From assembly GCA_026418175.1 (NCBI GenBank), contig JAOABX010000021.1:1-47578 (forward strand): a DNA stretch of 47,578 bases, in the 5' to 3' direction. Each line of letters opens with the position of its first letter. The first letter of the stretch is position 1. A program made the position numbers and the translations under genes. This DNA comes from Flavobacteriales bacterium (GTDB taxonomy: Bacteria > Bacteroidota > Bacteroidia > CAIKAF01). Positions 12,623 to 34,593 of this stretch are shown here, one piece after another. The notes under the pieces are model-generated. The model had not been told where the DNA came from. It searched no databases and saw only the letters and a list, made by a program, of their open reading frames with translations.

Positions 12623-12693
12623 TGCCCGATCGTCTAATGGCAGGACTTCAGATTTTGGTTCTGACTGTGTTGGTTCGAATCCAGCTCGGGCAA
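12623..12693 (+). tRNA. tRNA-Gln (anticodon TTG)
   Basis: 71-base cloverleaf. The acceptor arms TGCCCGA (12623-12629) and TCGGGCA (12686-12692) pair perfectly and the discriminator base is A at 12693. The anticodon stem TCAGA/TCTGA encloses a seven-base loop with TTG at positions 34-36. The T loop contains the usual GGTTCGAATCC. The CCA end is not encoded (CTT follows). Confidence 0.96.
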
Positions 12694-27076: not shown

Positions 27077-27095
27077 CGGCTGAATTTTGTGGGTA

Positions 27096-27986
27096 GTGGT
27101 AGCAGAAAACACGGTACATATTGAATCTTCCTCCCGATCCATCAGAATGGCTGATATTTTGGCATTTGCCAAACTTCGACTATCCCTGTTGGTGATTATA
27201 TCCGCTGTATTAGGGTATTTAATCGAAGCAAAAGAATTTTCGTGGTTTGCCCTGATGGGAGTATTTGTAGGTGGGCTATTAATTACATCGGCCTCCAATG
27301 GTATCAACCAAATTTTGGAAAGAGACCTTGATAAACTCATGAAACGAACCATGAGCCGGCCGCTTCCCATGGAAAAAATGACAGTAAAACAAGCAACTAT
27401 TCTTGTTATTATTTTGGGAATTACAGGTACCTTCATTTTGCTTGTATGGACAAATATTTTATGTACAATACTTAGTTTGAGCTCCCTTTTAATATACTCA
27501 TTTATATATACTCCCATGAAACGCTATACTCCCATTGCAGTTTTTGTGGGAGCCATTCCTGGAGCACTCCCCCCATTATTAGGTTGTGTAGCTGCATCCA
27601 GCAAAATTTCATTTATGGCTATGTTGCTATTTGCCATCCAATTTATGTGGCAGTTTCCGCACTTTTGGGCCATAGCATGGAAACTGGATGATGATTATAA
27701 AAAAGCTGGCTTTAATTTGCTTCCTTATCCTAGCGGCCATTCTAAACAAAATGCATTTCAAATTTTAGTATATAACTTGATGTTAATACCCGTAAGTGCT
27801 CTGCCATGGATTTTTGAAGTAGTATCACCATTAGCAGGAGTCTTGGTGGTATGTTGCTCGGTTTTATTTTCTATTCCGGCTTTTTTACTTTACATCCGTT
27901 GCGATATGAAGTCGGCCACTCAACTAATGTTTGCATCCTTTGTTTATTTACCAATTACTCAACTCATCATTTTATTTAATCCATGA
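27096..27986 (+). CDS. cyoE: Haem O synthase (protoheme IX farnesyltransferase)
   Basis: UbiA-family polytopic inner-membrane enzyme that adds a farnesyl group to haem B for the terminal oxidase. It is 296 residues from the GTG at 27096; a TTG at 27087 and the ATG at 27147 are alternatives, the ATG leaving a short cytoplasmic tail. About nine hydrophobic helices are visible. The first Asp-rich prenyl-diphosphate motif is SNGINQILERDLDKLM with MSRPLP following, and the second region is WKLDDDYKKAGFNLLP. MWQFPHFWAIAW is a CyoE/COX10 hallmark. The stop overlaps the start of the first subunit III gene by four bases, so it leads the oxidase-assembly operon. Confidence 0.93.
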   Translation: MVAENTVHIESSSRSIRMADILAFAKLRLSLLVIISAVLGYLIEAKEFSWFALMGVFVGGLLITSASNGINQILERDLDKLMKRTMSRPLPMEKMTVKQATILVIILGITGTFILLVWTNILCTILSLSSLLIYSFIYTPMKRYTPIAVFVGAIPGALPPLLGCVAASSKISFMAMLLFAIQFMWQFPHFWAIAWKLDDDYKKAGFNLLPYPSGHSKQNAFQILVYNLMLIPVSALPWIFEVVSPLAGVLVVCCSVLFSIPAFLLYIRCDMKSATQLMFASFVYLPITQLIILFNP

Positions 27987-28594
27987 CAAAGGGGAATACT
28001 ACATCAGCCAATACAGGCAATATAAATGCTGAAGACCGTGAACGTGCCAGCAAGTTTTTACTTTGGCTGGGTATCATTTCTATGATCATGATTTTTGCGG
28101 CATTAACAAGTGCCATAATTGTAAGAAAATCAGACAGCAATTGGTATACATTTGAAATTCCTGTAGAATTTACCATTAGTACTTTAGTGCTACTTGTAAG
28201 CAGCATATCTATGATATTGGCAGTTTTTTTTACAAGAAAATCCCAAAAAGGGGCTGCCACTTTATTTCTTTTTATTACACTTGCACTCGGAAGTAGTTTT
28301 GCCTGGTTACAATTTGAGGGGTGGAAGCAGTTGGTTAAAAACAATATCTATTTTGTAGACAACCTTACCGGCAACATTTCCGGATCGTTCTTTTATGTGA
28401 TAACAGCGCTGCATTTGCTGCACCTGTTTGGGGGCTTGCTGGCAGTTTTTGTTACCACACTTCGTTCGGCAGCGGGCAAATACTCACCCTCCAACTATTT
28501 AGGTTTAAAATTGTGTGCCATTTTTTGGCATTTTTTAGATGGATTGTGGTTATATTTGTTCCTGTTCTTGCAATTTTCGGATCAAATTATTTAA
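27983..28594 (+). CDS. Cytochrome c oxidase subunit III-type protein (first copy)
   Basis: 203 residues with five hydrophobic helices and the subunit III signatures SFFYVITALHLLHLFGG and FWHFLDGLWLYLFLFL. It resembles the short five-helix subunit III of bacterial haem-copper oxidases. Its start codon overlaps the end of cyoE. A second, distinct subunit III follows after 36 bases; paired subunit III genes are common in Bacteroidota oxidase clusters. Which one is stoichiometric in the complex cannot be told from sequence. Confidence 0.9.
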   Translation: MTKGNTTSANTGNINAEDRERASKFLLWLGIISMIMIFAALTSAIIVRKSDSNWYTFEIPVEFTISTLVLLVSSISMILAVFFTRKSQKGAATLFLFITLALGSSFAWLQFEGWKQLVKNNIYFVDNLTGNISGSFFYVITALHLLHLFGGLLAVFVTTLRSAAGKYSPSNYLGLKLCAIFWHFLDGLWLYLFLFLQFSDQII

Positions 28595-28630: not shown

Positions 28631-29341
28631 ATGGCGCATTCAACAGCAGAACCGGTATCAGCCAAAGCAGCGTGGGGCGGCGGGGTTGCCCCATACAACA
28701 TTAGCTGGGGAAAAATGATGATGTGGTTTTTCCTGGTATCTGATGCTTTAACATTCTCCAGTTTATTAATTTATTACGGTGCATCACGTAATACGTATCG
28801 TGTAGCAGGTAACTGGCCTGATCCGGATACCGTTTTTAATCACTTTCCATTTATTGAAGCCCATGTGCCACTGGCTTTCGTATCTTTAATGACGTTTATT
28901 TTGATTATGAGTTCGGTAACTATGGTATTAGCTGTAGAAGCTGGACATCGCTTCGATAAAAAGAAAGTAATCTTTTGGTTGGTTCTTACTATCATAGGAG
29001 GATTGATGTTCTTAGGCTCTCAAGCATATGAATGGACAGCCTTTATTACTGGTACGCATGATGGCAGACCATTGCCAGATGGATCAGTACTTCGTGGCGC
29101 TGGTTTAACTCAAAATGAATACGGTCATCCTTTATTTGCTCAGCTTTTCTTTTTTATAACCGGATTCCATGGATCGCACGTATTTAGTGGTGTAGTGCTG
29201 AATGTTATCACGTTAATTATGACTATTCGTGGAGTTTTTGAACGCAGAGGGCATTATGAATTTGTTGAAAAAGTAGGATTGTACTGGCACTTTGTAGATT
29301 TAGTTTGGGTATTTGTGTTTACTTTCTTCTATTTGATTTAA
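28631..29341 (+). CDS. Cytochrome c oxidase subunit III (second copy)
   Basis: 236 residues with helices at about 30-48, 77-102, 115-135, 165-190 and 215-235. Subunit III features are GSQAYEWTAFI, FFFITGFHGSHVFSG and YWHFVDLVWVFVFTFFYLI. It has a longer loop (about 140-160) than the first copy and little direct identity with it, so the pair is ancient rather than a recent duplication. It lies between the first subunit III and the subunit IV gene. Subunits I and II and cytochrome c are not in this window. Confidence 0.93.
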   Translation: MAHSTAEPVSAKAAWGGGVAPYNISWGKMMMWFFLVSDALTFSSLLIYYGASRNTYRVAGNWPDPDTVFNHFPFIEAHVPLAFVSLMTFILIMSSVTMVLAVEAGHRFDKKKVIFWLVLTIIGGLMFLGSQAYEWTAFITGTHDGRPLPDGSVLRGAGLTQNEYGHPLFAQLFFFITGFHGSHVFSGVVLNVITLIMTIRGVFERRGHYEFVEKVGLYWHFVDLVWVFVFTFFYLI

Positions 29342-29373: not shown

Positions 29374-29769
29374 ATGGAACTTTACGATTCATATCATCAG
29401 CATTTACACAAAGTTGGGGACCCCATTGCTCCACCTAAAACCCGCTGGATTTGGGTAGTATTTTGGTATCTTCTTGCAGTAACTATTGTTGAGGTGGGAT
29501 TAGCCAGTGTAAATTATTATGGAAAAATGGGTTGGGATCTGTGGTTGAAACCCACATTCATTTTGCTCACATTACTTAAGGCATACTATATCATCTTTTC
29601 ATACATGCACCTAAAAGATGAGCGTAAAAACTTCAAACTAACACTTGGATTCCTTATCATTATTTTAGGGTATTTCATTATGTTAATGATGATTGAAGGA
29701 TATTATCAAACACAAGTTCGCATGATATTTCCGGATTTCTTAAAACAAACCATTGTAACTCATCATTAA
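29374..29769 (+). CDS. Cytochrome c oxidase subunit IV-type protein
   Basis: 131 residues with three hydrophobic helices (about 27-47, 60-78, 90-110). The prokaryotic COX4/CyoD-like pattern is seen in FILLTLLKAYYIIFSYMHLKDERKNFKL. Such small subunits stabilise the haem-copper oxidase. It is 32 bases after subunit III and is followed by a strong terminator, so it ends the first transcription unit of the cluster. Confidence 0.88.
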   Translation: MELYDSYHQHLHKVGDPIAPPKTRWIWVVFWYLLAVTIVEVGLASVNYYGKMGWDLWLKPTFILLTLLKAYYIIFSYMHLKDERKNFKLTLGFLIIILGYFIMLMMIEGYYQTQVRMIFPDFLKQTIVTHH

Positions 29770-29852: not shown

Positions 29853-29897
29853 CATCTAACTAAAATTACTGAAATTTGTTAAATATTTAGTTAGATG
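29853..29897 (+). promoter_or_regulatory. Perfect 12-bp inverted repeat containing the start codon of the Sco-like gene
   Basis: CATCTAACTAAA (29853-29864) and TTTAGTTAGATG (29886-29897) are exact reverse complements with a 21-base loop. The last three bases of the right arm are the ATG at 29895. If transcribed, the hairpin would sequester the start codon; if not, it is a candidate operator. Confidence 0.65.
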
Positions 29898-30608
29898 AAA
29901 AACACATCTCCCATATTAAAATTTTCGGTCATTATTGGGCTACTTGCATTACCCACCTTGATTTTTTATTTGTTTGTTTTTACTGGTGTTCATCATGTTT
30001 CTCGCTTACCTTTTTTCGGACCCCGTAAGGTTATAGAAAAAACAGAACGGGGAAAACTAGTAAAAGATACCGTATATCATGAAGTAGCACCCTATGAAGC
30101 AATCTTACCCGATTCATCATTGTTTCAAATTTCATCCACAAACGGGATTATTTATCTCACCCATTTTTTAGACTTTTCTGTACTGGATCAAATCCCCAAA
30201 GAGATTACTTACATGATTTCAGAAGCATTGGTTGAACATCCGGACATACAAGCTATTACACATATTTATAATTATCAGGGAGAGCCTTTGCCCAAGCCTT
30301 CAGAAATAACATCCAAACTAACAGGCAAAGACAATGTGTGGCATTATATTTTAATTCATGATTCAATAATTTCTTTCATTCAACAACAATATTTTTTTAC
30401 TGAAGAATACGAAAACCCACAGGACCCATTCAGCTTAGTAATGGTTGATAAAGAAAAACGAATTCGAGGATATTACAATCCGATATTGGCAGCGGATGTA
30501 AAACGCCTAAAACAAGAAATAAGTTACTTAAAAAGAGAATACGAACTAAATTTTAAAACACATCGGTATTTTAAATACAATGAAAAAATTGAGCAGAAAC
30601 GGAAATAA
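29895..30608 (+). CDS. Degenerate Sco-like paralogue without cysteines
   Basis: 237 residues, one N-terminal transmembrane helix (about 8-30), then a thioredoxin-like part. It parallels the following Sco gene: RLPFFGPRKVIEK with KDTVYHEVAPY against the neighbour's TLPYMGPHIIQER with IDTIYHTIPPF, and a shared ending PFSLVMVDKEKRIRGYY with ADVKRL. The whole protein has no cysteine, and the copper-site CxxxC and His are missing (FLDFSVLDQIP replaces the FTTCPSICP region). It cannot do Sco copper chemistry as known. It could be a structural partner of Sco or an assembly factor. The end overlaps the Sco start by 29 bases. The call as a Sco relative is my inference from this parallel. Confidence 0.75.
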   Translation: MKNTSPILKFSVIIGLLALPTLIFYLFVFTGVHHVSRLPFFGPRKVIEKTERGKLVKDTVYHEVAPYEAILPDSSLFQISSTNGIIYLTHFLDFSVLDQIPKEITYMISEALVEHPDIQAITHIYNYQGEPLPKPSEITSKLTGKDNVWHYILIHDSIISFIQQQYFFTEEYENPQDPFSLVMVDKEKRIRGYYNPILAADVKRLKQEISYLKREYELNFKTHRYFKYNEKIEQKRK

Positions 30609-31254
30609 TTGGCTAATTCTGCTGATGTTGTTCATGGCTGCTTGTGGTAAAAAAAATGCTGTTCAACAACAACTCACCGTAAATCAGCCTACCCTACCTT
30701 ACATGGGGCCGCATATTATTCAAGAACGAGAAGAAAACGGAGTACTTATAATTGATACAATTTATCATACAATTCCCCCTTTTTCTTTTATTGATCAGGA
30801 TGGAAATATTGTAACTGAAAAAACGGTAGAAGGTAAAGTTTACATTGCAGACTTTTTTTTCACAACTTGCCCAAGTATTTGTCCTAAAATGGGAGTAACG
30901 CTTCAATTAGTTCAGGAAAAATTAAAAAACGAACCTCAATTTATGATTCTGTCACACTCCATTGATCCAGAACATGACAATCCTGCGGTGCTTAAAGAAT
31001 ATGCAAAGAAGTTGGGGGCCAATGAACACCAATGGAAATTTCTTACAGGAAACCGTGATTCTATTTATACTATTTGTGAAGAATCATACATGGCTTTTGC
31101 TTATGAAGATGCCAATGCCGAAGGCGGATACCTACACAGCGGATTTTTGGTGCTTGTTGACCAAAACCGTCACATTCGTGGTGCATACGATGGTACCCGG
31201 CCTGAGATTACCGACTCGATAGTTGCTGATGTAAAACGTTTATTAAAAAAATAA
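30580..31254 (+). CDS. SCO1/SenC-family copper chaperone lipoprotein
   Basis: 224 residues. A lipoprotein signal ends MAAC (Cys22). The thioredoxin-like domain has the copper-binding Cys97 and Cys101 in FTTCPSICPKMG and the third ligand His186 in GGYLHSGFLVLVD, with ILSHSIDPEHD typical of the family. Sco delivers copper to, or reduces, the CuA site of oxidase subunit II. It starts inside the end of its cysteine-free paralogue, so translation may be coupled, and is followed two bases on by the DUF420 gene. Confidence 0.95.
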   Translation: MKKLSRNGNNWLILLMLFMAACGKKNAVQQQLTVNQPTLPYMGPHIIQEREENGVLIIDTIYHTIPPFSFIDQDGNIVTEKTVEGKVYIADFFFTTCPSICPKMGVTLQLVQEKLKNEPQFMILSHSIDPEHDNPAVLKEYAKKLGANEHQWKFLTGNRDSIYTICEESYMAFAYEDANAEGGYLHSGFLVLVDQNRHIRGAYDGTRPEITDSIVADVKRLLKK

Positions 31255-31255
31255 C

Positions 31256-31795
31256 ATGAAGCCGATAGCTAAAAATGACAAAGCCGCACAGTACTTTATT
31301 ATTGCTATTTCAGCCGTAGTATTCATTGCTGTTGTTATTCTCTCCAGGGTAAAACTAGAAATAAAACTTGGATTTAATCCGCATATATTTGCCATGGTTA
31401 ATGCCATGATTAATTCAATAGTATCAGTATTATTAATAGGTGCACTAATTGCTATTAAACAGAAAAAAATAAGTCTGCACCGAAACCTGATGTTTGGTTC
31501 AATTATTCTTTCAGTTCTATTTTTAATTTCTTATATACTTCATCACTTATTTACCCACGAAACTCCTTTCGGAGGCGAAGGGGCTATCCGAATTGTTTAT
31601 TATATAATACTCATTTCGCATATCATTTTAGCCGGTGTTATTCTTCCATTTATTTTATATACAGCATACCGAGCACTAACTGCAGAATATGACCGTCACA
31701 AGAAACTGGCAAAAATTACTTGGCCAATTTGGTTTTATGTATCGGTAACTGGTGTTATTGTTTATCTTTTAATTTCACCATATTACGGCGCATGA
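31256..31795 (+). CDS. DUF420-family membrane protein
   Basis: 179 residues with five hydrophobic helices (about 13-31, 42-64, 78-94, 108-130, 148-168) and the DUF420 pattern of conserved polar residues inside helices (FAMVNAMINS, HRNLM, LHHLFTHE, ISHIILA). DUF420 proteins, including CtaM in Firmicutes, are needed for haem-copper oxidase maturation. The place behind sco fits this. It follows sco after one base and overlaps the next gene by four bases. Confidence 0.9.
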   Translation: MKPIAKNDKAAQYFIIAISAVVFIAVVILSRVKLEIKLGFNPHIFAMVNAMINSIVSVLLIGALIAIKQKKISLHRNLMFGSIILSVLFLISYILHHLFTHETPFGGEGAIRIVYYIILISHIILAGVILPFILYTAYRALTAEYDRHKKLAKITWPIWFYVSVTGVIVYLLISPYYGA

Positions 31796-33551: not shown

Positions 33552-33576
33552 CTGCATGATATTGCAACATATAAAA

Positions 33577-34593
33577 ATGAAAAAATTTTACCTAATCGGT
33601 TTAGTAACGCTTTTTTTATTTATTTTAGAATATTCCTGCAGTAATAAACCTCAAGCTCCTGATGTAAAACACATCAGTGATGAAGTTATTATCAAACGAT
33701 TTGATGTTGATTTATTTTCTATATCTTCTGACAATATCCTGTGGAATGAACTTGTAGAACTACGAAAAAAATATGGTGAGTTTTACGATTTATATATGGA
33801 AAAAATTGCAAATCTCACCCGGGCCGATGATAGTACTGGAATGAACTATATCCATGATTTTTTAAATGATCCGGATATGAAAGCCATTTATTCAGAAACA
33901 CAAAAAGTTTTTGGCAACTTTTCACCACATGAAAAAAAACTTCGCAAAGCAGTACAATTTTACCGATATTATTTTCCAGAAAGATACATACCACAAATTA
34001 TCACTTATTTTTTTGGTTTTAATTATGCAGTGGTAGCTACAGATAGTGCAGCTTGTATTGCATTAGATCAATACCTTGGAAAAGATTTTAAATATTACAA
34101 TCATTTGCCAGATTATATCCGAAATCGAAAAGAACCCGCTTATTTAGTAACTGATTTAATGAAAGGATGGGCAATGACTGAGTTTGAGCGTAATGAGCCA
34201 CGGGTAGATTTGCTTGATGAAATGATATTTCAGGGAAAAGTGATGTACTTTTTAGAACACATACTACCCTTTGAACCCGATACTATATTGATGGGATATT
34301 CTAAAAAACAACTCAATTTCTGTAAAGAAAATGAATGGAACATTTGGAGTTATTTCATAGAAAACAAATTACTTTACTCTAAAAATTATACCGACATTAG
34401 TAAATACACCGGCGAAGCACCTTTTAGTGCTGGCATGCCTAGAGAAACGCCAGGAAGAACAGGAATTTGGACAGGATGGCAAATTGTAAAAGCGTATGCT
34501 AAAAACAATAAAAATGCTACAATTCAAGATATCATGAATGAACATGATTACAAAAAAATTCTTAATAAATCTAACTATAAACCCAAGCGATAA
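33577..34593 (+). CDS. gldB: Gliding motility lipoprotein GldB
   Basis: 338 residues from the ATG at 33577; the ATG at 33556 is too near the promoter box. The signal peptide ends at Cys21 (LEYSCSNK), fitting a lipoprotein. GldB features include IIKRFDVDLFS, AVQFYRYYFPERYIPQIITYFFGFNYAV, IALDQYLGKDFKYY and the C-terminal PRETPGRTGIWTGWQIVKAY. GldB is required for gliding and T9SS function; its fold suggests a zincin-like, peptidase-related domain, but no activity is proven as far as I know. gldC follows after three bases, the same pairing as in Flavobacterium. Confidence 0.93.
   Translation: MKKFYLIGLVTLFLFILEYSCSNKPQAPDVKHISDEVIIKRFDVDLFSISSDNILWNELVELRKKYGEFYDLYMEKIANLTRADDSTGMNYIHDFLNDPDMKAIYSETQKVFGNFSPHEKKLRKAVQFYRYYFPERYIPQIITYFFGFNYAVVATDSAACIALDQYLGKDFKYYNHLPDYIRNRKEPAYLVTDLMKGWAMTEFERNEPRVDLLDEMIFQGKVMYFLEHILPFEPDTILMGYSKKQLNFCKENEWNIWSYFIENKLLYSKNYTDISKYTGEAPFSAGMPRETPGRTGIWTGWQIVKAYAKNNKNATIQDIMNEHDYKKILNKSNYKPKR

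Follow-up and report, generated by a model that had tools for sequence, protein, structure and literature searches.

A Sco-family protein without copper ligands in a cytochrome oxidase gene cluster, and the apparently repeated loss of these ligands at one operon position in Bacteroidia

The cytochrome oxidase gene cluster in the window, by which we mean the whole 47,578-nucleotide stretch of DNA analysed here, encodes a Sco-family protein (P1) that lacks the CxxxC motif and distal His by which Sco copper chaperones are judged, and the same ligands are missing again and again from the proteins that other members of the class Bacteroidia encode at this operon slot, the position between COX4 and DUF420/CtaM. 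We give a probability of about 0.5 to the reading that P1 is the ancestral membrane-anchored Sco of the operon, which would have lost its ligand site and would now work only as a docking or assembly factor with putative partners and role.

The cluster runs on the plus strand in the order heme o synthase, COX3, COX3, COX4, P1, sco and DUF420 (Table 1). DUF420 corresponds to CtaM, which the aa3 and caa3 oxidases of Bacillus and Staphylococcus need for their biogenesis (PMC9145763). The P1 frame overlaps that of the intact Sco (P2) by 29 bp, as the earlier note had read it. The terminator stem in the gap between COX4 and P1 shows compensatory changes in the sister species, and P1, sco and DUF420 may therefore form a transcription unit of their own.

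Table 1. Features of the oxidase gene cluster around P1 (positions in the window).
Feature	Position	Strand	Basis
Heme o synthase (CtaB/CyoE)	27087..27986	+	TIGR01473
First COX3, oxidase subunit III	27983..28594	+	Pfam/NCBIfam scan of window
Second COX3, oxidase subunit III	28631..29341	+	Pfam/NCBIfam scan of window
COX4_pro, oxidase subunit IV	29374..29769	+	Pfam/NCBIfam scan of window
Intrinsic terminator between COX4 and P1	29792..29818	+	Compensatory changes in sister species
12-bp perfect inverted repeat, 21 nt between arms	29853..29897	+	Second arm includes P1 start codon
P1, Sco-family protein, cysteine-free, predicted N-terminal membrane anchor, 237 aa (237 codons)	29895..30608	+	BLASTP, hhalign, PDB profile search; 14 orthologues
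P1 predicted TM anchor and start of juxtamembrane segment (approximate)	29919..30000	+	Hydrophobicity read from sequence
P1 site of lost CxxxC (approximate), SVLDQIPKE vs CPSICPKM in neighbour P2	30180..30206	+	Alignment
P1 conserved C-terminal module DPxSLVxVDKExRIRGYYNP...EYxxxxxTHRY, including tail absent from P2	30423..30575	+	Alignments
P2, intact Sco, 224 aa, lipobox, CPSIC, His (HSGF)	30580..31254	+	PF02630 1.2e-27
DUF420 membrane protein, CtaM-like oxidase biogenesis factor	31256..31795	+	PF04238 5e-43

The homology of P1 to the Sco family over the Sco thioredoxin-like domain is judged secure from sequence, because pairwise, profile-profile and profile-to-PDB comparisons agree. P1 and P2 were 27% identical across 183 aa in BLASTP (E=2e-18), the profiles of their two families aligned in hhalign with a probability of 99.5% (E=1e-22), and a profile of 14 P1 orthologues searched against PDB sequences returned four chains at E<=10, of which the top three were Sco proteins (4hde 4e-6, 1xzo 3e-4 and 1on4 9e-4) and the fourth had E=0.26. 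The profile search proposed in the earlier note thus found Sco similarity, although single-sequence scans of Pfam and NCBIfam with P1 gave no match at E<=1 and the Pfam family PF02630 SCO1-SenC was matched neither by P1 nor by any of its 14 orthologues. The motifs that P1 had been said to share with P2 (LPxxGP, DTxYH, LVxVDxxxxIRGxY and ADVKRL) are all present in the alignment. A thioredoxin fold of P1 is implied by the homology; an AlphaFold model from a 4-row alignment reached a pLDDT of 40 and a pTM of 0.21. The N-terminus carries a hydrophobic segment at about residues 9-31, a helix at 6-31 in this low-confidence model, and reads as a membrane anchor of a single TM segment, in line with the earlier note; P20, F24 and Y25 are invariant in the 14 orthologues. 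P2, with its MAACG lipobox, reads as a lipoprotein.

As for the copper ligands, the absence of cysteine noted earlier is complete (0 in the 237 codons), and the positions of P1 aligned to the ligands C, C and H are occupied by V, I and D, so that the description as a Sco paralogue without copper ligands holds on both counts. Intact Scos coexist with it in the genome: the adjacent P2 and a further Sco at C11:32103-32672. Of the 20 CoxII loci retrieved, 19, including that of the source genome, carry the CuA Cys/Cys/His/Met motif, and the remaining one (G003) matches it in part; the need for CuA maturation therefore persists, and loss of CuA from the oxidase is ruled out as the cause of the ligand loss.

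Comparison with the sister species (86% identical) gave a dN/dS of 0.092 (bootstrap 0.055-0.146), while in the same species pair sco, COX4 and DUF420 gave 0.063, 0.054 and 0.070, respectively. Values of 0.04-0.17 came from additional pairs of degenerate slot proteins (families f1, f54 and f40), and the sister slot proteins of G181 (intact) and G071 (degenerate) gave 0.25. Taken over all ten slot-protein pairs, dN/dS lay at 0.04-0.25 in nine, the tenth, from f50, being saturated at synonymous sites. This showed that P1 is under purifying selection and ruled out its decay as a pseudogene. Within the GTDB-style family f1, of which 16 members were checked, an orthologue with intact frame is present in all 14 members that bear the cox operon, which agrees with the earlier view of a maintained, not decaying, gene. 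That note had also treated absence from close relatives as telling against its reading. The gene is indeed missing from two congeners in f1 (G002 and G003), but COX3 and DUF420 are missing there too, the whole operon being gone, and P1 is thus tied to the cox operon. In G006 and G010 sco and DUF420 are found on a different contig from P1, which remains beside COX3-COX3-COX4.

Shared ends and position together argue that P1 is the original Sco of the operon and P2 a later addition. Within f1 the ends of P1 are the better conserved: identity is 44% for the TM segment, 50% for the juxtamembrane segment, 60% for the C-terminal strand/helix and 49% for the tail, against 35% and 25% for the two parts of the core. 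P2 shows the reverse emphasis, its core being 54-56% identical and its N-terminal segment 26%. Between families the core of P1-type proteins is only 10-14% identical. The N-terminal and C-terminal consensus of P1 matches the intact membrane-anchored slot Scos (TM-Sco) of other Bacteroidia, the C-terminal tail is absent from P2, and P2 groups with the other lipoprotein-type Sco of the genome. We argue for the original status of P1 because its ends match those of the intact slot Scos and it holds the same position; for the orthology of the slot, synteny and the shared ends carry more weight than the tree. The earlier picture of P1 beside the "real" sco is correct as to paralogy, but P1 is apparently not a side copy, as it occupies the slot of the membrane-anchored cox-operon Sco.

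DUF420 served as the anchor across 316 Bacteroidia genomes. From these, 120 regions upstream of it were retrieved, and among the 101 slot proteins of this sample 55 had the full set of two Cys and His (CCH), 32 were without both aligned Cys and 14 were partial, the no-Cys proteins falling in 11 of 34 families. When relatives retrieved with P1 as query were included, a set biased toward P1-like proteins, 67 of 133 were CCH and 51 lacked both Cys. Scos in the second slot, on the other hand, were CCH in 29 of 29. Partial slot proteins kept CxxxC without His in f40, f5, f17, f20, f23 and f61 and a single Cys in f5 and f35; individual Scos with CxxxC but without the distal His are L030 (G031), L103, L104 and L140 (f5) and L128 and L144 (f40). 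Slot Scos of this kind apparently represent an intermediate stage of loss, and in f40 the slot proteins range from CCH, through loss of His with CxxxC kept, to loss of all ligands. A degenerate and an intact Sco stand in tandem in families f1, f2, f12, f20, f37 and f54, while in many genomes the slot Sco is degenerate and the intact Sco lies elsewhere, with none adjacent. Because of these genomes, and because the genes are unlinked in G006 and G010, translational overlap with the partner is not essential for a slot Sco.

The ligands of the slot Sco were apparently lost several times. In a tree of 191 rows, built with the ligand columns excluded, starred branches force at least 6 changes for the degenerate slot group, and a more careful tree of 63 rows needs 10 ligand-state changes, of which its starred branches force only 3 for the no-Cys group. 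Placing all 22 no-Cys slot proteins in one clade was rejected by the AU test (p=2e-4), while holding f1 and f40 alone together was not (p=0.10). The plainest instance is G071 (no Cys) next to G181 (CCH), the two being sister species of one genus joined with full support. We claim several losses and give no exact number, which is uncertain, because the deep branches are long and weak and make deep placement unsafe.

A census of intact Scos elsewhere in the genome, with a strong Pfam match serving as the sign of an intact Sco site, found another strong Sco in 66 of 67 degenerate-slot genomes against 28 of 41 intact-slot genomes (Fisher 9e-6, not corrected for relatedness, with intact-slot genomes partly hand-chosen and tandem genomes counting by definition); independent genome pairs were too few for a test of this association. 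The lone degenerate-slot exception, G317, is a draft of 1,670 contigs. The 30 Sco loci sampled from the census combine non-slot Scos, drawn from either group of genomes, and some intact slot copies; all 30 had CxxxC, and 29 had His by a simple pattern.

In the reading that we prefer, the membrane Sco of the operon would lose its copper and redox site and retain its membrane tether. Its TM/juxtamembrane and C-terminal parts would let P1 dock on the oxidase, with apo-CoxII in the neighbourhood of CoxIII/IV and CtaM as the probable partner; copper and thiol chemistry for CuA would come from P2, the lipoprotein Sco, or from another intact Sco. The chaperone would thus be divided into a holding subunit, P1, and a catalytic subunit, the intact Sco. 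At the level of the class, the CuA chaperone would have been split repeatedly, the cox-operon Sco becoming a ligand-free docking factor each time and a separate Sco doing the copper chemistry; this extension of the proposal is tentative and stands a little short of an even chance. P1 might instead have become a lasting accessory subunit, of the oxidase or of the ACIII-oxidase supercomplex, and not act as a transient assembly factor, which we think unlikely. Its conserved TM and C-terminal ends would fit such a subunit, as would its staying with COX3-COX3-COX4 in the two genomes where sco and DUF420 have moved off, but in the window a terminator parts it from COX4 and its frame runs into sco; a PDB search for the COX3/COX4 type of this oxidase, in which P1 might be seen as a subunit, gave no matches.

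The overlap with sco, together with the tandem arrangement in six families, might suggest a regulatory partner or decoy, P1 forming a pseudo-heterodimer with the intact Sco and controlling copper release. We regard this as decidedly improbable, as many degenerate slot proteins have no intact Sco adjacent and the two genes are unlinked in G006 and G010. P1 might, outside oxidase assembly, sense or signal redox or copper stress, as has been proposed for plant HCC2, which is without ligands, is dispensable for COX activity and gives yeast tolerance to oxidative stress (PMC3971200, PMC6307045), and the inverted repeat at the start of P1 hints at regulation; such a role is very improbable here, since P1, unlike HCC2, has no Cys and within its family occurs only in genomes bearing the operon. 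It is scarcely credible that P1 is slowly decaying, as the relic of a Sco that was replaced: its core does evolve fast and differs widely between families, but the low dN/dS in nine of ten pairs, the intact frame in all operon-bearing relatives and the invariant ends speak against it.

The closest known case to P1 is Arabidopsis HCC2, likewise a Sco-family protein with one TM segment which lacks CxxxC and His and coexists with an intact Sco, HCC1. HCC2, however, is a plant mitochondrial protein with five other Cys, unlinked to oxidase genes and tied to UV-B and oxidative stress, while P1 is bacterial, has no Cys and sits in an oxidase operon. A genomic survey of Sco was reportedly made by Banci et al. 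in 2007. The bacterial Sco/SenC proteins 4hde and Bacillus YpmQ (1xzo/1on4) are homologous to P1 over the Sco domain and membrane-tethered, but bind copper through CxxxC and His, the residues that P1 lacks. Paracoccus denitrificans also has two Sco paralogues in its genome, ScoA and ScoB, with overlapping roles (PMC9145763); these overlap in CuA maturation, whereas of P1 and P2 only the latter keeps the ligands. A 2019 review called the function of ligand-less Sco "very surprising" and its nature a question for further research (PMC6696091). In the open-access literature searched we found no report of a ligand-less Sco in Bacteroidia or of any bacterial case, and the novelty of a bacterial ligand-less Sco is not certain. 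If the class-wide split is real, Sco has a second, copper-independent function that is selectable on its own. The recurrence of the loss in one operon slot, with the sister pair G071/G181 and the graded states of f40, offers a bacterial system in which a copper-independent role can be tested by gene removal. Genes for a "hypothetical protein" between COX4 and sco, unrecognised by Pfam, can moreover be flagged as possible ligand-less Scos.

The arms of the inverted repeat at the start of P1 read CATCTAACTAAA and TTTAGTTAGATG. The repeat is mostly retained in the sister species and its RNA fold has a z of -4; no second copy was found genome-wide, hence no regulon, and it is an unexplained candidate for an operator or a start-codon hairpin. 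Elsewhere in the window we noticed a gene for the gliding motility lipoprotein GldB at 33556-34593 (PF25594, 5e-105) and a tRNA gene on the plus strand at 12623-12693, which is the sole Rfam match in the window.
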